DNA from: Spirochaetota bacterium
Lineage (GTDB): Bacteria > Spirochaetota > UBA4802 > JAFGDQ01
DNA length: 64,000 bases
Direction: 5' to 3'
Assembly: GCA_034190085.1 (NCBI GenBank)
Contig: JAXHTS010000023.1
Coordinates: 1-64,000 of the forward strand
A program made the translations under genes and the position numbers. The number at the start of each line of letters is the position of its first letter. The first letter of the stretch is position 1. Shown one piece after another: positions 18,440 to 43,964 of the stretch. The notes beneath the pieces are model-generated. The model searched no databases. It was not told where the DNA came from and saw only the letters and a list, made by a program, of their open reading frames with translations.

Positions 18440-19100
18440 AAAACCTGAGGATAATGATAAAACAGGCGAGGTGCTTGCTATAATAGAAAGCAATGAAAGT
18501 TTATCATCATATCATATAAGATCATTAATTCCTGGCAGAATAATTGAGAAACATATTACTCTCGGCAAGTTTTTCTCTGATGAAACAACTGTATATAAAA
18601 TAGCAAATTTTTCAATAGTATGGATCAATCTCGCAGTTTATATAAAAAACCTCCATATTATTAAAATTGGCCAAAAAGTCGATATCGAGTCTGTTGGTGT
18701 TCATATAAGGGCTTCAGGAATTATTTCTTATATTCAACCAATCTTTAATGAAGAGACAAGAGGTTTTATCGCTAGGGTGGTGCTTCCAAACAGGAATAAT
18801 CAATTTCAACCTGGTATGTTTGTTAAAGGAAAGATTGTGCTGATAACTGGCAAGAGTATACCTATAATATCCAATAATGCTCTACAGGTGATTGATGAAA
18901 AGCCCTGTGTTTTTGTACCGGAAGGGAAAGGCGTTTACAGACTTGTCACTTTTAGTATTGGGGAAAAGGGCATTCATTATAGTCATCTCCTTTCAGGTTT
19001 GAATATTGGGGATTCTTATGTTGGTATTGGCTCCTTCAAGTTTAAGGCTAAATTTGTAATGAGCAATATTGGAGGGCATGCAGGTTATGGACATCAATAG
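18440..19100 (+). pseudogene. Decayed CusB/CzcB-type efflux adaptor
   Basis: The frame 18471-19100 (209 codons) is the C-terminal half of a heavy-metal RND periplasmic adaptor: TGEVLAIIESNESLSSY (lipoyl-like half), then the barrel region with YKIANFSIVWINLAVY, TRGFIARVVLPNRNNQFQPG and the end GGHAGYGHQ. Reading backwards, the same frame continues to about 18440 (PEDNDKTGE). Similarity then seems to jump to another frame (KRYKKIYKK), and no signal peptide or first half is found. The intact protein would have about 400 residues. The locus therefore looks truncated and frameshifted, a non-functional remnant next to a broken cusA. Confidence 0.75.
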
Positions 19101-19985
19101 GGTACTAAAATATCAGTTATAGAGTGTACCGGGTGTGACAAAGGTTTTTTCTATGGGGGGTCATGTATTGCAATATCAGGTTAAACTGAATCCCTCTGCT
19201 CTGGCGCAGTATAAAATTAGTCTCAGCGAGGTAGTTGAAAGCATTAATTCTAATAATGGCAATGAAGGCGGGCAGTTTATTGTGTTTGGTTCAGAAGAGT
19301 ATCTTGTTAGAGGAATTGGTTTAATCAGGACGCTTGAGGATATAGGTGATATCAAGCTTAAAGTAGTGAATGGATTCCCAATTCGTCTTAGCGATGTATC
19401 CCGGATTGAATATGGTAATGAAATTCGAAGAGGAATCTTCATTCGAAATGGATCTGATGAGGTTGTTGCCGGAATTGTACTAAAGCTTTATGGGGAAAAT
19501 ACATTCAGAGTAATCGAGCGCCTTAAAGAAAAGTTTATTGAAGTACAGAAGGCTCTTCCAGCGGATGTTGAATTAGTATTTTATTATAATTAGACTATGC
19601 TTGTGGGAAATGCCACATGGACGGTAAAGAAAACTCTCATTGGCTCCATTATTTGTAATAGTACCACTTGCCTTTTTGTTAATCTTTTTAATACTTTTTT
19701 TATCATTGGGAAATATAAAAATGCGCTTTTTATTTTTTTTAATGTTCCTCTTGCTCTTATAGATGGTGTATTCGGTCTTTTGATTTCAGGAGAATATTTA
19801 TCAATCCCGACATCTGTTGGTTTAATTGCGCTTTTTATTATTGCTATGCAAACGGACTTGTGCTTGTTACCTGTATCAATCAATTAAGACAGGATTGCAT
19901 GAAAATAAAAGAAGCAGTTATCAATGGCGCTCTTGTGAGGGTAAGACCTGTGCTGATGACAATATTTACAACTTTAATAAAATAA
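19087..19985 (+). pseudogene. Decayed CusA/CzcA-type RND heavy-metal pump
   Basis: Pieces of one CusA/CzcA gene lie in order but in broken frames. Piece 1 (19087-19593) reads VLKYQL, a TAG stop at 19120-19122 where the family has Gln, then SVPGVTKVFSMGGHVLQYQV and onward to ADVELVFYYN. Piece 2 (19597-19887) carries WTVKKTLIGSII and VPLALIDGVFGLLISGEYLS, the first membrane segments in degraded form. Piece 3, shifted by one base, reads QLRQDCMKIKEAVINGALVR and VRPVLMTIFTTLI, and stops at 19983-19985. The family has about 1,030 residues; over two thirds are missing, including the N-terminus. At least one nonsense codon, two frame breaks and two large deletions are needed, so this is a pseudogene. 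Confidence 0.82.
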
Positions 19986-22808: not shown

Positions 22809-23090
22809 TCATTCTGTAAGATATTTATTTATATCATCAGCCATCTGATGACCTATTATTGTTATATTAAGCTCTTTTATTTCATTCAATTTCAATAGAG
22901 AGTTTTTAATATCATGGGCTAAAGAAAAAACCAATGGACAGATAGAGGATGAGGGTTGTATTTCAAAAGAGACTTTTGCATCTTCAGTCACAATAAGATT
23001 CTTAATCAATCCCATACTTATTACATCTACCGTGGTTCCTTGATCTTTAATTTGTTTCAATTTTTCTACTATTTTCTTTCTAAGTTCCAC
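22809..23090 (-). CDS. DUF59/MIP18-type Fe-S assembly-like protein
   Basis: Ninety-three residues in the pattern of the DUF59 (PaaD/SufT/MIP18-like) family: an N-terminal helix (RKKIVEKLKQIKDQGT), the strand VDVISMGLIKNLIVTED, a beta strand with VSFEIQPSSSICPLVF containing the single Cys, then a helix and strand (NITIIGHQM). Family members help load or insert Fe-S clusters and are often next to Mrp-type ATPases. Here two MinD/Mrp-type ATPases with ferredoxin domains lie upstream in the same cluster. The gene is 55 bases from the thioredoxin gene and 31 from the J-domain gene. Confidence 0.68.
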   Translation of the reverse strand: MELRKKIVEKLKQIKDQGTTVDVISMGLIKNLIVTEDAKVSFEIQPSSSICPLVFSLAHDIKNSLLKLNEIKELNITIIGHQMADDINKYLTE

Positions 23091-23145: not shown

Positions 23146-23475
23146 CTATATGACCACATATAGAAGCCTTTCAATTTTCGACTTAATAATTTCCTCGGGC
23201 ACAGCTCCGACGATCCCATCAACATTCTCGCCATTCTTGAAAAACATCAATGTTGGTATGCTCATTATTCCATATTTGCTGGCTGTATCTCGAGCTTCTT
23301 CAATATTAACCTTACAAAACTTGACTTTATCATTATAGCTCTCTGATAGCTTATCAACTACTGGGGATACCCTTTTGCATGGGCCACACCATGACGCCCA
23401 AAAATCAACGAGGACAGGCAAATCTGTTTTTAATACTTCTTTCTCAAAATTTTGATCTGTAATTTCGATTACCAT
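23146..23475 (-). CDS. trxA: Thioredoxin
   Basis: A canonical thioredoxin of about 109 residues with active site WCGPC in FWASWCGPCKRVSPVVDKL, the cis-proline loop SIPTLMFFKNGE and the end KSKIERLL. It reduces protein disulfides in the cytoplasm. ATG at 23475 gives MVIEITDQNF, the usual family start; a GGAG-like site lies upstream, and the frame remains open five codons further. It directly follows the UGA-containing flavoprotein gene (37 bases), so that enzyme may be its reductase or partner (inference). No classical thioredoxin reductase is in the window. Confidence 0.93.
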   Translation of the reverse strand: MVIEITDQNFEKEVLKTDLPVLVDFWASWCGPCKRVSPVVDKLSESYNDKVKFCKVNIEEARDTASKYGIMSIPTLMFFKNGENVDGIVGAVPEEIIKSKIERLLYVVI

Positions 23476-23512
23476 CTTAATTCTCCTCATTTATTGATCT
23501 TGAAAAGCTATC

Positions 23513-24871
23513 TCAAATAGCTTTAAATTTTTGGAGAGATTGCTCTGCGGCCAACGCAATTGGCTCAGCGCTAGGTTCTGAAGATAAATCAGGATGAGCG
23601 GCACACATTATAGTGGTGAGATCTGAAACGGTCGCTTCACTTCTAATCGCATAATTGATTGTATCTATCTCCTTCATAGGGGCCTCACTATCACTAAGTA
23701 TTTGCCCACCAATCAATTTTTGAGAATTTTTATCAAAAACTAACTTCAGTGTCCAGGGGATCTGCCCCTTAATCATTTTGTGTTTGTTTCTTGACTCAAC
23801 TACAGAGCTTACTGTTTTAATGCCTTCCTTGTTGGCAAACTCCTCAATCAGACCAACTGAAGCTATAGATTTGTCAAAAAGTTTAACCGCTAAATTATTT
23901 AATACACCAGGGAATTCGATATTATAGCCGGCAAGTTGTTTCGCTACCAATCTTCCTTGAATAACGGCGGTGGAGCGATTTTGACCAGGAATAGGTTTTT
24001 TTGTAATAGGGCTTTCCATTTGCACGCAATCTCCAGCGGCAAAGATGTCTGGATTTGAGGTTTCCATAAATTTATTCACTTTTATCCCAATATCCCCCAA
24101 TTCCAAACCAATTTGTTTTGCCAATTCTAAATTGGCCTGAACTCCAATTGAAAGAACAACCATATCCGCGGGAATGATTTCCCCTGTAGAAAGCTCCACA
24201 CCTGATACAAATCCATCTTTCCCAATGATTCTTTCCACTCTATTTCCCAATTTTAGCCTGATCCCTTCCTGAGTAAGATACTCCATAAGCGTGAGCGCCA
24301 ACTCACTGTCTAACATTGGAGGAAGTGGACGATCAAGAAATTCGACTACAGTTATATCCAAAGATGGCCTTGTTGTCAAAAGCAGCGTTCCTAATTCTAA
24401 TCCAATAGCACCGGCTCCAACAATGATCATTTTTTTTACACTTCTTTCTTCTATAAATATTTTCATTTTCTCCGCTTCTGGAGTGCTTCTCAAGGTGTAC
24501 ACGCCCTCAAGATCTCTTCCAGGAAAAGGGGGAACCTTCGGTTTTGCCCCAGTCGCTATCAATAGCTTATCATATGAAAGAGAATCGCCATTTTGTAAGG
24601 TAAGAACTTTTTTTCTTGTATCCAATGCGGTGACCTTATTTATTAGGGATTTAATCCCCCTTTCCTGAAAAAAAATTTTATCTGGATTGATAATAGATTC
24701 GACAGTAGCCAGACCGGCTACAACATGTGGCAATGCTCATCTTACAATAAAATAAGGCTCTATACGGATAACTGTAACTTCAAGATTGGGATTTAATTTC
24801 TTTGACAATATGGCGGCAGGTGCTCCTGCTCCTCCACACCCTATAACAATAAATTTATTTATTTGTGACAT
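23513..24871 (-). CDS. Candidate selenoprotein: CoA-disulfide reductase/NADH oxidase-like flavoenzyme (UGA = Sec45)
   Basis: The true gene very probably starts at ATG 24871, after AGGAGG at ideal spacing. It encodes 452 residues if one UGA (24739-24737, codon 45) is read through. Residues 1-44 hold the FAD-binding strand-loop-helix (KFIVIGCGGAGAPAAILSKK). After the UGA come ALPHVVAGLA, the second dinucleotide motif IIVGAGAIGLELG, NPDIFAAGDC and the dimerisation domain. In CoA-disulfide reductases and NADH oxidases, the residue before the (A/G)LP box is the redox cysteine (around residue 43). The UGA takes exactly that place, and a SECIS-like hairpin follows. Known annotation practice would truncate it at TTG 24733, losing the FAD motif. 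It lies between a GPMC thioredoxin-like gene and thioredoxin. A simple nonsense mutation is the alternative. Confidence 0.85.
24705..24739 (-). promoter_or_regulatory. Candidate bacterial SECIS element after UGA
   Basis: On the minus strand the UGA (24739-24737) is followed by 15 bases, then stem GTAGCC (24721-24716), loop GGTCT (24715-24711) and stem GGCTAC (24710-24705). The stem is perfect, the apical loop starts 22 bases after the UGA and begins with G. These features match the bacterial SECIS pattern. From memory, the loop is the same as the GGUCU loop of E. coli fdhF. It would recruit SelB with Sec-tRNA. Confidence 0.78.
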
Positions 24872-25017
24872 CCTATTCCTCCTACTCTCTACATCTTAGG
24901 ATTGTAGATTTTTAATACGGAAACAGTCCAAATTAAAAATGTCTATAGCTCTCTTAATTATTATACTAATTATTCCTAATTCTTAAAAATGAATTCATCA
25001 TAATGTTATAAAGCGCA

Positions 25018-25368
25018 TTAGAAAAAACATTCTTCACAAATTTCTTCAATTTGAGCCTTTGTTTGAATACTCGTTGTGGCATGCACAATCTTTTGATTAC
25101 GATAATATACTGTGAATGGTAATCCTCTAAAACTACTGCATTCTTTTGCTTTTTTTATTGGAGAAGCGGCCTCATTATCAAATTCTACAACGCGAAATTG
25201 AATATGCTTATATTTATTCACTAATTCCAAATGCTCCATTACTTTATAAACAGGGATACACATTGGTCCCCATCTACCCGCACAGACTACCAGCATATCA
25301 TTATCGGATAGTGTAACCTCAAAATCCTTTAATGATTCTATATGTTTCAATTTTGTATTCATTCCCAT
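25018..25368 (-). CDS. Thioredoxin-like protein with GPMC instead of CxxC
   Basis: A 116-residue thioredoxin-fold protein. Where thioredoxin has WCGPC, it reads VVCAGRWGPMCIPVYKVME: the first cysteine of the CxxC is replaced, so the site is GPMC, and another Cys lies seven residues before the retained one. The cis-Pro loop is FRGLPFTVYYRNQK, with Cys in KECSSFRG and CEECFF at the end. Such one-Cys variants usually bind or transfer a group, or use a distant resolving Cys, rather than act as classic disulfide reductants. The start ATG follows GGAG. It lies immediately upstream of the candidate selenoprotein in the same transcript, which suggests that the two proteins interact. Confidence 0.75.
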   Translation of the reverse strand: MGMNTKLKHIESLKDFEVTLSDNDMLVVCAGRWGPMCIPVYKVMEHLELVNKYKHIQFRVVEFDNEAASPIKKAKECSSFRGLPFTVYYRNQKIVHATTSIQTKAQIEEICEECFF

Positions 25369-25499: not shown

Positions 25500-26360
25500 C
25501 TAATTATTCATGGTCTTCATTACACCTTTCCAAATCCCCTTAACCTCTTCGGTTACCTCTCCACAGTCATACTCAACTACAGATTTTTTGTTTATCATGG
25601 CTTTTGTTACCTCTGGATTGTAACTTATCTTCCCCGCTATCTGCAACATGTTTTTCGAACAATATTCCTCTATCTGTTTTGAATTATATAAATTAATATC
25701 ATATTTATTTATGCATACCAATGATGGAATATTAAAATGCTTGGCAACCCCAATTACTCTTTCTAAGTCGTGTATCCCTGACAAGGTAGGTTCAGTAACA
25801 ACAAGCAAGAGATCAACACCTGTAATTGACGCTATTACTGGACAACCTATGCCAGGAGGGCCATCAACAATAATATATTCAACCTCTTCCCTCTCTGCAA
25901 TCAATTTCGCCTGCTGTCGCACCAAGGTCACAAGCTTTCCTGAATTATCCTCGGCAATTCCAAGCTCAGCATGAGTCATATATCCATATCGAGTATGAGA
26001 GATAAACCACTTGCCGGATATATTTTCTTCCATATTTATTGCGCCCTGTGGACATGCTCTTGCGCATAATCCGCAACCCTCGCATGATATGGGGTCAACC
26101 ACATAGTCTTTTATAGCATCAAATCTGCAAAGATTTTGGCATTCACAGCATAAAATGCATCTCCCACTGTCTATAACCGCAGTTTTACCTCCATGAAAAA
26201 CTTCACTCTTCTCTATCTTTGGTTCTAAGATAAGATATAGATCAGCGGCGTCTACATCACAGTCCGCCATCACATGAGAATCAGATAGCGAAGCAAAGGC
26301 AGCGGTAATCGTGGTCTTGCCTGTTCCACCCTTGCCGCTTATAATGGTTAACTGCTTCAT
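25500..26360 (-). CDS. MinD/Mrp-type ATPase with inserted ferredoxin domain (second copy)
   Basis: A P-loop ATPase of 286 residues with the deviant Walker A motif GKGGTGKTT at 9-17. An inserted two-cluster ferredoxin domain (CILCCECQNLC near 68-78, CEGCGLCARACPQGAI near 94-109) is followed by the Walker B-like VDGPPGIGCPV and the adenine-binding region NKYDINLYN. This is the MinD-superfamily/ferredoxin type found in tandem in anaerobes, including the orange-protein (ORP) locus of Desulfovibrio. It probably binds or inserts Fe-S or other metal clusters using ATP. The start lies one base after the stop of its paralogue, so the pair is translated together and likely forms a heterodimer (inference). 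Confidence 0.9.
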   Translation of the reverse strand: MKQLTIISGKGGTGKTTITAAFASLSDSHVMADCDVDAADLYLILEPKIEKSEVFHGGKTAVIDSGRCILCCECQNLCRFDAIKDYVVDPISCEGCGLCARACPQGAINMEENISGKWFISHTRYGYMTHAELGIAEDNSGKLVTLVRQQAKLIAEREEVEYIIVDGPPGIGCPVIASITGVDLLLVVTEPTLSGIHDLERVIGVAKHFNIPSLVCINKYDINLYNSKQIEEYCSKNMLQIAGKISYNPEVTKAMINKKSVVEYDCGEVTEEVKGIWKGVMKTMNN

Positions 26361-26361
26361 T

Positions 26362-27195
26362 TTAGTTAACCTCCTTTTTTATCATATCATAAAGTTGAAT
26401 AAAATTTTCATTATACTCAGGCAAGGCCTCTAATAATGGGATCCCTTCAGAATATGCTACCGCTATTCGCCTATCCCAAGGGATGGTCATTAAAATTTGT
26501 ATATTTTCTTCTCTGCAATATTCTTCAACCTCTTCATTCCCGATATCCGCGCAGTTTACTACCACTCCAAAGGGAATCCGCAATTTCCTTATCATCTCTA
26601 CAGCAAGTTTAAGATCGTTTAAGCCAAATGGGGTGGGCTCGGTCACTAATACGCAGAAATCGCTTCCCTTTACTGATTCCACAACCGGACATGACGTACC
26701 AGGTGATGCATCAATTATAACATCTTTGTTATTATGGATAAGCCCTTTAACGCGCCTGATTAAAGGCGGAGCCATCGGTTCTCCAATGTTAAGGATACCG
26801 TGGATAAGCTCAATGTTTTGAGAATTCCCCCTTTCAATAATCCCTATCTCTCTCTCAATCTCGCTTATGGCATTCTCTGGGCAAAAATAGCTACATGAAC
26901 CGCAGCCATGACACAATTCCGGGAAGAATAGAACCTTATCCTTAATCACTACAATGGCATTGAACTCGCAAACCTCAGCGCACTTGCCGCAATATGTGCA
27001 TTTTGAATCATCTACCTCTGGCACAAGTATACCCACAGACATACGTTCTGCCAATTCAGGATTTATAAATATATGAGCATTAGGTTCTTCAACATCACAA
27101 TCCAAAAACTGCACACCGCCAAGGGAAAGGGCTAGGTTTACAGCAATTGTTGTCTTTCCAGTCCCGCCCTTCCCGCTTGCTATTGATATTATCAT
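26362..27195 (-). CDS. MinD/Mrp-type ATPase with inserted ferredoxin domain (first copy)
   Basis: A 277-residue paralogue of the next gene with the same order: GKGGTGKTTIAVNLALSLGG, DCDVEEPNAHIF, ferredoxin insert CTYCGKCAEVCEFNAI (near 65-80) and CHGCGSCSYFCPENAI (near 95-110), then IDASPGTSCPVVESV and VVNCADIGN. The tandem pair is a known arrangement in sulfate reducers, syntrophs and other anaerobes, usually beside NifX/ORP-like and Gly-rich small proteins, exactly as here. The expected job is ATP-dependent handling of a metal cluster. The gene starts six bases after the end of the Gly-rich zinc-ribbon gene, so it is part of the same operon. Confidence 0.9.
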   Translation of the reverse strand: MIISIASGKGGTGKTTIAVNLALSLGGVQFLDCDVEEPNAHIFINPELAERMSVGILVPEVDDSKCTYCGKCAEVCEFNAIVVIKDKVLFFPELCHGCGSCSYFCPENAISEIEREIGIIERGNSQNIELIHGILNIGEPMAPPLIRRVKGLIHNNKDVIIDASPGTSCPVVESVKGSDFCVLVTEPTPFGLNDLKLAVEMIRKLRIPFGVVVNCADIGNEEVEEYCREENIQILMTIPWDRRIAVAYSEGIPLLEALPEYNENFIQLYDMIKKEVN

Positions 27196-27201
27196 AAATG
27201 A

Positions 27202-27432
27202 CTACCCCCTAATCATTGCTGTACCGCACTTGGGGCATTTTTCATCATAGCATGGCACGCCTACACTGTGAGGGACTGTAGCTCCGCAGGATGGGCATCT
27301 ACAATTACCACTGGGACCAGAGCCTGGTCTGGTCCCTCCCATCCTTCCCATGCGGCTAGCTCCTCCTCCTCTTCCCCTTCCTGTTCCTGAACCGCCACCT
27401 CCCGTAGGTCCTGTTCCATCACCTCTTGGCAT
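27202..27432 (-). CDS. Gly/Arg-rich zinc-ribbon small protein
   Basis: A 76-residue protein starting MPRGDGTGPTGG, the same opening as the DUF5320-like protein at 30405. A Gly/Arg/Ser-rich flexible stretch follows, then a C-terminal zinc ribbon (CRCPSCGATVPHSVGVPC, then CPKCGTAM). The ATG at 27432 has AGGAGG eight bases upstream; a longer GTG start would overlap that site and is unlikely. It lies in the ORP-like operon between the NifX-like gene and the two ATPase genes. The family has no established role; the ribbon can bind zinc or an Fe-S cluster. Confidence 0.8.
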   Translation of the reverse strand: MPRGDGTGPTGGGGSGTGRGRGGGASRMGRMGGTRPGSGPSGNCRCPSCGATVPHSVGVPCYDEKCPKCGTAMIRG

Positions 27433-27470
27433 ATAAACCACCTCCTAAATAGTATTCAAATAACAAAAGT

Positions 27471-28046
27471 TTAGTCTCTTTTTTCAGCCAAATCGTTTAT
27501 CCTTTTCTCAACATTATCAAGCTCTTTCCTCATCTTTTCCGATTGTTCCTTCAGCATCGCCATCTCTTCATGTTTAGACATATGTGGAGAAGACTGCGTT
27601 TGATTTGGAGCCGCACCTGGGCTCATTCCACTACCCATGCCTGATCTCATGCCTCTACCGCTTCCCATTCCAGCTCCAGCGCCCATACCGTAATGCGATG
27701 CTACTGAAGGTTCTGAAATATATTGATATTGTCCTTTCTTGAATCCCTCAACTGCCTCTTTTACAGAAATATTTGATAAACCCACAATAATTTTTATGTC
27801 GGCTGCCTGAAGGGCACTAAATGCATTTGGACCTGCATTGCCTGTGAGCACAACCTCCACACCTTTATTGGCGACAAGCTGAGCAGATTGTGATCCTGCT
27901 CCCCCGCCAGCGCTAATAGATGGATTTTCAATAGATTCAAACTGCATAGTATCTGTATCCAAAATAATAAAGTACTGGGATCTCCCAAACCTTGGATCTA
28001 CAGGATTATCTAAAGCCGGACCAGAGGATGTAACACAGATTTTCAT
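27471..28046 (-). CDS. NifX/NifB-type, orange-protein-like protein with coiled-coil tail
   Basis: Residues 1-115 match the dinitrogenase iron-molybdenum cofactor/MTH1175-like domain (PF02579-type): MKICVTSSGPALDNPVDPRF with FGRSQYFIILD, then GVEVVLTGNAGPNAFSAL and VKEAVEGFKKGQY. A Gly/Met-rich linker (about 116-150) and a charged helix (EMAMLKEQSEKMRKELDNVE, ending NDLAEKRD) follow. The tail resembles the C-terminal helix of the DUF5320-like protein at 30028. Domain family members bind Mo- or Mo/Cu-containing clusters (NifX, orange protein). With the two MinD-type ATPases next door, the locus recalls the ORP complex. There are no nitrogenase genes in the window, so nitrogen fixation is not implied. 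Confidence 0.85.
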   Translation of the reverse strand: MKICVTSSGPALDNPVDPRFGRSQYFIILDTDTMQFESIENPSISAGGGAGSQSAQLVANKGVEVVLTGNAGPNAFSALQAADIKIIVGLSNISVKEAVEGFKKGQYQYISEPSVASHYGMGAGAGMGSGRGMRSGMGSGMSPGAAPNQTQSSPHMSKHEEMAMLKEQSEKMRKELDNVEKRINDLAEKRD

Positions 28047-28129
28047 TTTTTGCTCCTTGAATATACTAAATATTTACTTTATAACTTTTTAACAATACAA
28101 GGGTATTGATGATATTTTTGTAATATTTT

Positions 28130-28384
28130 TTAGCTATTACATTCTTCTGATTTGCCACAGGGGATATCCCTCCCACAACAAGGTGCATCCTTTCCGCATG
28201 TGGGTGATTTGAAACTTGTTACTATCGTATCACTCCCCTTCATAATAAAACCACTCCCACCAGTAATCAGACGTTTTACAACCCCACTGCATTCTGGGCA
28301 CTCTTCAAGCGGTTCCTCTTCCATCCTCTGAAACTGCTCAAATCTATTTTTACATGATAAACATACATATTCATATATAGGCAT
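28130..28384 (-). CDS. FmdB-type zinc-ribbon protein with Cys-rich tail
   Basis: Eighty-four residues starting MPIYEYVCLSCKNRFEQFQR, the FmdB/CxxC_CxxC_SSSS signature, with the second pair in LEECPECSGVVKRL. Together these form a zinc ribbon. FmdB-like proteins are small putative regulators or metal-binding proteins. The tail is unusual: six Cys in CGKDAPCCGRDIPCGKSEEC, which could bind another metal or cluster. AAGGGG precedes the ATG. A second FmdB-like gene lies at 29526, without this tail. Confidence 0.82.
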   Translation of the reverse strand: MPIYEYVCLSCKNRFEQFQRMEEEPLEECPECSGVVKRLITGGSGFIMKGSDTIVTSFKSPTCGKDAPCCGRDIPCGKSEECNS

Positions 28385-42608: not shown

Positions 42609-43964
42609 TTATTTATTATTTCTTTGCTTCTTTATAATCATTTCAGCCGCTTTTATTAAAGGATATGCTGTGGGCGGTGCTGTCAGGAGGGGATGGGTCC
42701 CTATCTGTGAGGTTAATATATCACTTACCGTCATTCTGTTTTGGATGGCATAACCAATCAAATTGGTGAGTTCCCCTGCTGTTGGACCACCGATAACTTC
42801 TCCTCCAAGAATAACTCCGAAATCTACAGATGCAATCAATTTTATAATTTGTTTATGAGTGTCCGGCAACGTGCCGGGATGCTTGTCAATTCCCTCAAAT
42901 GTCCCACTTACTACATTAAATCCTCTTTCTTTTGCTAGGCTTTCGGTGACTCCGGCAGCCCCAAACGCCGTATCTCCAATGCACGTGCAAAAGATGGCAA
43001 TCGTACCGCTAAACGATTTTACGATGGAAAGGTTGAATAGATTCATTCCTGCGATACGACCCTCTGCACAGGCGGTTGAAGCCAGCATAACACCCTTTAA
43101 TGTTCTTGTCAGGAAGCTGTGTTTTCCCGCACAGTCTCCTACGGCAAAAACGTCTATATCCTCTGTTCGCATATATTCGTTTACCTTGATGAATCCCAAG
43201 TTATTTATCGGTATGCCGGAATCCTTTGCAAGTTCTGTATTCGGGCTGTAGCCGGTTGAAAGGATTACAGCATCAGCAGTAATTTTTTCTTCATTATTCA
43301 AAAGGACAGCCTCGACCTTGCCATCTCCAAGAATCTCTCGAACACCTACACCGGTTCTAATTGTTATACCTCTTGATTCCAAAATTTTTTCAACCTTGAT
43401 GGCCAGTTCCTGATCAAATGCAAGGCTTAAAATAGTCGGCATCAGTTCAACGATTGTAACATTTTTTCCCGTCTTCTTTAGTTCATCCGCAACTTCGACA
43501 CCAATGAATCCGCCACCAATGACAATTACATCTTTGCAGTCATCAAGCGTTGCTTTTGCCTTATCAAGATAAACTTTGTCTTTAGGTATTAATATTACGT
43601 TTTTTAGGTCTGATCCTTTTAGCCATTTGGGTTTAACAGGTTTTGAGCCGGTTGCAATTATAAGCTTGTCATAGGATATTTCTTCATCATTAGATGTTTT
43701 GCAAATTTTGTTTTTGTTGTCAATATGGATCACTTCTCCGATTTTTAAATTTACTCCCGCATTTTCCAGAACGGCATCAGCGATTAAGTTTTTCTCACTG
43801 CTTCCCAGTGATTCAAATATATAGGGTATCCCGCAGGGAACGAGGACTTTTTCTTCTTGTCTGATAACCATAAATTCTTTTTCTGGATAAAATGATTTTC
43901 CTGTTGTGGCAGCCACAATACCCGCCGCACTGCCACCGATAATGAGAACATCTGTCTTCTGCAT
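42609..43964 (-). CDS. CoA-disulfide reductase/NADH oxidase-like flavoprotein, Cys form
   Basis: About 451 residues from the ATG at 43964 (GGAGAAGG upstream). FAD motif VLIIGGSAAGIVAA, then VLVPCGIPYIF, where the Cys is the family's redox residue. Next IIATGSKPVKP, NAD(P)H motif VIVIGGGFIGVEVA, DIDVFAVGDCAGKH and the C-terminal dimerisation domain (TAGELTNLIGYAIQN, THPLLTAPPTAYPL). Members reduce CoA disulfide, polysulfide or oxygen with NAD(P)H. It is a paralogue of the UGA-containing protein at 23513 and keeps Cys where that has UGA, a useful internal comparison. It sits just behind the IS30 element and stands alone. A longer start (MEKGEG) at 43988 would use the ribosome binding site as code, so it is unlikely. 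Confidence 0.9.
   Translation of the reverse strand: MQKTDVLIIGGSAAGIVAATTGKSFYPEKEFMVIRQEEKVLVPCGIPYIFESLGSSEKNLIADAVLENAGVNLKIGEVIHIDNKNKICKTSNDEEISYDKLIIATGSKPVKPKWLKGSDLKNVILIPKDKVYLDKAKATLDDCKDVIVIGGGFIGVEVADELKKTGKNVTIVELMPTILSLAFDQELAIKVEKILESRGITIRTGVGVREILGDGKVEAVLLNNEEKITADAVILSTGYSPNTELAKDSGIPINNLGFIKVNEYMRTEDIDVFAVGDCAGKHSFLTRTLKGVMLASTACAEGRIAGMNLFNLSIVKSFSGTIAIFCTCIGDTAFGAAGVTESLAKERGFNVVSGTFEGIDKHPGTLPDTHKQIIKLIASVDFGVILGGEVIGGPTAGELTNLIGYAIQNRMTVSDILTSQIGTHPLLTAPPTAYPLIKAAEMIIKKQRNNK

Follow-up and report, generated by a model that had tools for sequence, protein, structure and literature searches.

On the minus strand of the window (the whole 64,000-nucleotide stretch that was analyzed), a reading frame that runs from ATG 24871 to 23513 contains a single internal stop, the TGA of codon 45 (24739 to 24737), and ends at another TGA (23515 to 23513). 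The sequence-only reading of this DNA had described the lone in-frame TGA, a perfect AGGAGG ahead of the ATG, and intact downstream domains, and all three descriptions proved accurate: the coordinates of the codon agree, the AGGAGG lies at 24883 to 24878, and Pfam recovers Pyr_redox_2 up to residue 285 and a dimerisation domain at residues 329 to 432. Pyr_redox_2 is found as one match (residues 6 to 285) that bridges codon 45, indicating that the parts encoded before and after the TGA form one domain. The 452-aa product is assigned to the fold shared by CoA-disulfide reductases (CoADR), persulfide reductases, and NADH oxidases (Nox). The warning that ordinary gene calling truncates the gene and loses the FAD motif was also justified, as a mechanical ORF call gives a 406-aa protein from TTG 24733. 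A perfect-looking hairpin, AAAGCTAT-TTGA-GATAGCTTT, surrounds the terminal TGA (23505 to 23525, minus strand), 5' of the Shine-Dalgarno sequence of the thioredoxin gene that follows. Features of the locus are listed in Table 1.

Table 1. Features of the candidate selenoprotein locus and its neighborhood
Feature	Position	Strand	Basis
Predicted selenoprotein gene, 452-aa FAD/NAD(P)H pyridine nucleotide-disulfide oxidoreductase, Sec45	23513..24871	-	Frame, Pfam, AlphaFold
UGA codon 45, predicted to be read as Sec, motif R-U-A-L-P-H	24737..24739	-	Alignment to Cys of homologues
Shine-Dalgarno AGGAGG, 6 nt 5' of ATG 24871	24878..24883	-	Sequence
Predicted bSECIS GUAGCCGGUCUGGCUAC, 6-bp stem, GGUCU loop, loop 21 nt past UGA	24705..24721	-	Match to FDH SECIS, bSECIS limits
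Thioredoxin (WCGPC), directly downstream	23146..23475	-	TIGR01068, 131.8 bits, above cut-off
FeS_assembly_P (DUF59) protein, downstream	22809..23090	-	PF01883
Thioredoxin-like protein, one active-site Cys (WGPMC), directly upstream	25018..25368	-	Weak TrxC match (E 2.7e-4); sequence
MinD/ParA-type ATPase with ferredoxin insert (Orp3/Orp4-like)	25500..26360	-	CbiA, Fer4
Second MinD/ParA-type ATPase with ferredoxin insert (Orp3/Orp4-like)	26362..27195	-	CbiA, ParA, Fer4
Nitro_FeMo-Co protein (NifX/orange-protein-like), DUF5320 tail	27471..28046	-	PF02579
FmdB-type zinc ribbon	28130..28384	-	PF09723, TIGR02605

AlphaFold modeled the full-length candidate with a pLDDT of 87.6 and a pTM of 0.84, and a helix starts at residue 44 of the predicted structure, as expected for the redox residue. 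The top PDB fold match was 6pfz, an NAD-dependent persulfide reductase of Archaeoglobus (TM 0.91), followed by CoADR-RHD and CoA-persulfide reductases, and sequence searches likewise led to solved structures of NADH oxidase and of CoA-disulfide or persulfide reductases. The candidate shares with 6pfz, 3icr, 4fx9, and 8a56 (persulfide/CoA-disulfide reductases) the whole-length fold (TM ∼0.9), the FAD and NAD domains, and the place of the redox residue; it differs from them in sequence (27 to 33% identity), in its predicted replacement of Cys by Sec, and in having neither a rhodanese domain nor a YYPG or YAPPFS motif.

CoADR enzymes have C-terminal tyrosines (Tyr361 and Tyr419 in the S. aureus enzyme), while NADH oxidase and NADH peroxidase have a histidine, His10, in their FAD motif. 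The candidate has KMIKG and CAAHPDLSSEP where the tyrosine motifs YYPG and YAPPYS would be, its FAD motif reads GCGGAG rather than the GSxHxG that holds His10, and it scored 258.5 bits against the CoADR equivalog TIGR03385, for which the curated cut-off is 578.8. It does have the FAD, NAD, and dimerisation domains and the one redox residue near position 43 that define the single-(seleno)cysteine oxidoreductase superfamily. The original label, a CoADR/NADH-oxidase-like enzyme with Sec at the active-site Cys, therefore stands as to the kind of enzyme and the place of the Sec, but not as a canonical CoADR or Nox; by these motifs and scores the candidate is neither. With the equivalog cut-off, the Tyr motifs, and the NADH oxidase His all missed, single-selenocysteine chemistry through a mixed selenenylsulfide is the most likely mechanism.

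Column 45 is occupied by Cys in every homologue aligned there, in agreement with the earlier claim that the TGA falls at the redox Cys of the family. The alternation of Sec and Cys proposed for this residue was found on its Cys side, and no second Sec member was recovered. Searches that covered 46 genomes from the order, 393 from the phylum, and 398 from the Lutispora phylum turned up no close relative (best matches 34 to 39% identity), and no Sec-containing orthologue was found in the genomes searched, the nearest relatives being 33 to 39% identical and all carrying Cys. The pattern U-[AG]-x-P-[YH] gave 17 matches in the 393 phylum genomes, and the only homologous one was that of the window itself; a contig scan and a plasmid search yielded distant homologues alone, and a search of the phylum of G394 (three genomes) yielded nothing. 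Two TGA-flagged homologues from the same order were set aside, one (G014) having its TGA at column 400 rather than a Sec at column 45 and the other (G015) having no internal stop in its aligned stretch. The candidate is known from one gene in one draft genome (86 contigs).

A maximum-likelihood tree of 34 proteins groups the candidate with a branch characterized by the motif CAMPY (support 96/88), and a CGIPYIF branch adjoins this group with weaker support (87/59); both branches are separate from the canonical CoADR/Nox proteins. The window also encodes a Cys paralogue (42627 to 43961, minus strand), which is 33% identical, carries VPCGIPY, and falls in the CGIPYIF branch.

A 6-bp hairpin with a GGUCU loop beginning 15 nt past the TGA had been placed within the bacterial SECIS window, and both its position and its description are correct. 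Published bSECIS limits call for a loop of 3 to 9 nt with G in loop positions 1 to 2, a stem of 4 to 16 bp, a loop 16 to 37 nt past the UGA, and a minimum free energy of at most -7.5 kcal/mol; the candidate lies within all of them (loop of 5 nt beginning GG, stem of 6 bp, 21 nt, -9.3 kcal/mol). Such a structure is easily found, however: 617 of the 2,884 TGAs in the window have, within the allowed range, a stem of 6 bp or more, 80 (∼3%) have such a stem together with a G-type loop, and the folding of the hairpin region compared with shuffled sequence gave a z of -0.08. We therefore rejected the bare hairpin as stand-alone evidence. A scan against Rfam over the SECIS region returned nothing relevant. 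The exact element GTNGCCGGTCTGGCNAC, by contrast, had one match in the window at two or fewer mismatches where 0.01 was expected, and is thus far above chance as a sequence, though not as a hairpin.

The sequence of this element recurs in the same genome. Seven Molybdop_Fe4S4 matches were found, and in three of the genes concerned a TGA stands in frame within the FDH context DHCAR[LT]UH[AS][PS]TVAGL (e.g., ARLUHAPTVAGL); one of them, on contig C44, scored 707 bits against TIGR01591 when read through. These Sec-FDH alpha genes, on contigs C27 (L060), C35 (L062), and C44 (L063), each have a TGA followed by a SECIS-like hairpin. In all three the TGA is followed by N15 and then GCCGGTCTGG, while in the candidate it is followed by N18 and then GCCGGTCTGGC. 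The FDHs are unrelated enzymes and their spacing is 3 nt shorter, but their SECIS core and loop (GCCGGUCUGGC) are practically those of the candidate. The core and loop of the 17-nt element of the candidate, GTAGCCGGTCTGGCTAC, equal those after the Sec-TGA of the three FDHs when aligned to GTGGCCGGTCTGGCCAC, GTCGCCGGTCTGGCGAC, and GTGGCCGGTCTGGTCAA. Across these elements stem pair 3 changes on both sides (A-U, G-C, C-G), and shifting the stem partner by 1 to 3 columns abolishes pairing in the four aligned elements; the covariation at this pair, being drawn from four sequences, is suggestive rather than statistically strong. A search of the whole 4.27-Mb genome for TGA-N(9-22)-CCGGTCTGG gave five matches, comprising the three FDHs, the candidate, and one noncoding site; this fifth match (contig C26) was discarded, as it lacks a stem and lies outside any coding frame.

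The element also encodes VAGLAT in both the candidate and one FDH, and Cys homologues have different peptides at the same place (e.g., YVIEGE, YYVGG, and YIFGTL), which suggests that the SECIS signal has shaped the protein of the candidate. Given the peptide VAGLA, codon usage in the window would yield the core and a complementary outer pair in ∼0.15% of cases.

The genome has the means to decode such a signal. The sequence-only reading had named selA, selB, selC, and selD as the genes to be expected, and tRNA-Sec, SelA, SelB, and SelD are all encoded: the tRNA-Sec gene (C50:24823) scored 70 bits (cut-off, 47), selA (495 bits) and selB (313 bits) directly follow it, and selD (386 bits) is on contig C49 (L053), all three protein genes being above curated cut-offs. 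Like the three FDHs, SelD is itself a further predicted selenoprotein of this genome: its gene is interrupted by an in-frame TGA with a 9-bp hairpin behind it. Genes for YedF and for a PF11823 Se/S carrier adjoin selD.

Because the genome encodes the full Sec machinery and the candidate carries the SECIS sequence common to its FDHs, we consider the candidate very probably a genuine predicted selenoprotein with Sec45 inserted by read-through, a conclusion now better supported than it was in the sequence-only reading. The main alternative to weigh is that a nonsense mutation or a sequencing error turned TGC or TGT into TGA in a Cys enzyme, leaving a pseudogene or an assembly artefact. A single base change does turn a Cys codon into TGA, the assembly is a draft, and Sec relatives were not found in the genomes searched; yet the rest of the frame is intact, a correctly spaced 17-nt element with the core of the FDH SECIS follows the codon, and its VAGLA peptide is unlike that of Cys homologues at the same place, and we regard such an accident as very unlikely.

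Slightly less likely still is genuine termination at the TGA with a restart of translation at TTG 24733, giving a protein without the FAD dinucleotide motif. The mechanical ORF call yields just such a product, but the strong Shine-Dalgarno sequence sits at ATG 24871, the FAD GxGxxG motif and residues 6 to 44 are homologous to the family, and an enzyme of this fold deprived of the FAD strand and the redox Cys would be expected to be inactive. A genome-wide reassignment of TGA to Trp, Gly, or Cys would account for the in-frame TGA and for nothing else; TGA ends 6 of the 41 long ORFs in the window, which shows that it serves as a normal stop and that the code is not reassigned, and in the genes examined TGAs interrupt frames at known Sec positions only, each with a SECIS-type hairpin, so that this explanation has a negligible probability.

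The genes around the candidate offer some indication of its role. A thioredoxin gene (Table 1) is probably on the same transcript as the candidate, and a flavodoxin gene also lies upstream on the same strand. The thioredoxin-like protein encoded directly upstream has no Pfam match and keeps the second active-site Cys alone. An ORP-like gene set spans 25500 to 28384 (minus strand). It resembles the Desulfovibrio ORP cluster (PMC6345978) in having two MinD-like ATPases with ferredoxin inserts and a Nitro_FeMo-Co protein upstream of the candidate, but differs in that no MrpORP fusion occurs among the adjacent genes examined and in that the reductase, the thioredoxins, and FmdB are additional. Genes of the same kinds adjoin the nearest Cys relatives, with a Nitro_FeMo-Co gene in one case (L057) and a MinD/ParA-type ATPase in two (L089 and L090). 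By association only, the neighborhood suggests a part in metal-sulfur or thiol redox chemistry. Elsewhere in the window (18471 to 19887, plus strand), consecutive pieces of an RND efflux system, an HlyD/CusB barrel and then ACR_tran profile positions 173 to 320 and 872 to 931, look like a decayed operon.

Under the read-through interpretation, SelB carrying Sec-tRNA(Sec) would bind the GGUCU-loop hairpin past the UGA of codon 45 and insert Sec, giving a full-length FAD- and NAD(P)H-dependent oxidoreductase of the homodimer type, with the persulfide/CoA-disulfide reductase fold, in which Sec45 would replace the single redox Cys beside the flavin. In the most likely reaction, NAD(P)H would reduce the FAD, which in turn would reduce a selenenylsulfide formed by Sec45 with the sulfur of a small thiol, a persulfide, or a thioredoxin-type protein substrate, with release of a thiol or sulfide. 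In an anaerobe, such an enzyme would probably provide a sulfur/thiol redox supply to the adjacent ORP-like/Fe-S-carrier genes and to the thioredoxins.

The description of this gene as a new selenoprotein does not hold if a new family is meant. In 2006, 'NADH oxidase' was already listed among the predicted selenoprotein families for Geobacter metallireducens (PMC1794560), and in 2008 it was listed again from Global Ocean Sampling data (PMC2398784); as 'FAD-dependent oxidoreductase (CoA-disulfide reductase)' the same family is tabulated in a 2022 review, where the motif is not given (PMC9312934), and in a 2026 review with the motif UGxP (PMC13188914). The G. metallireducens family (WP_011365774.1) belongs to the same superfamily, has Sec for the single active-site Cys, and uses bacterial SECIS decoding, as predicted for the candidate; compared by catalogued motif, that family has UGxP, whereas the candidate has UALP and falls on the branch with the CAMPY/CGIPY proteins. 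The candidate is a divergent member of a family that already contains Sec. It is a tentative possibility, a little short of probable, that it represents an independent change from Cys to Sec in an uncatalogued, persulfide-reductase-like CA[L/M]P branch linked to an ORP-type/MinD metal-sulfur cluster and served by the same SECIS as the FDHs of the genome. If true, this would suggest that a SECIS can arise by copying of the resident FDH signal or by convergence on it.

The finding corrects the annotation of this gene and enlarges a sparsely populated selenoprotein family by a divergent member. In addition, it provides a clean case of selenoprotein genes that are unrelated, belong to one genome, and have near-identical SECIS sequences; this similarity predicts more strongly than folding energy does, and the candidate shows how a SECIS signal may constrain the peptide that it encodes.
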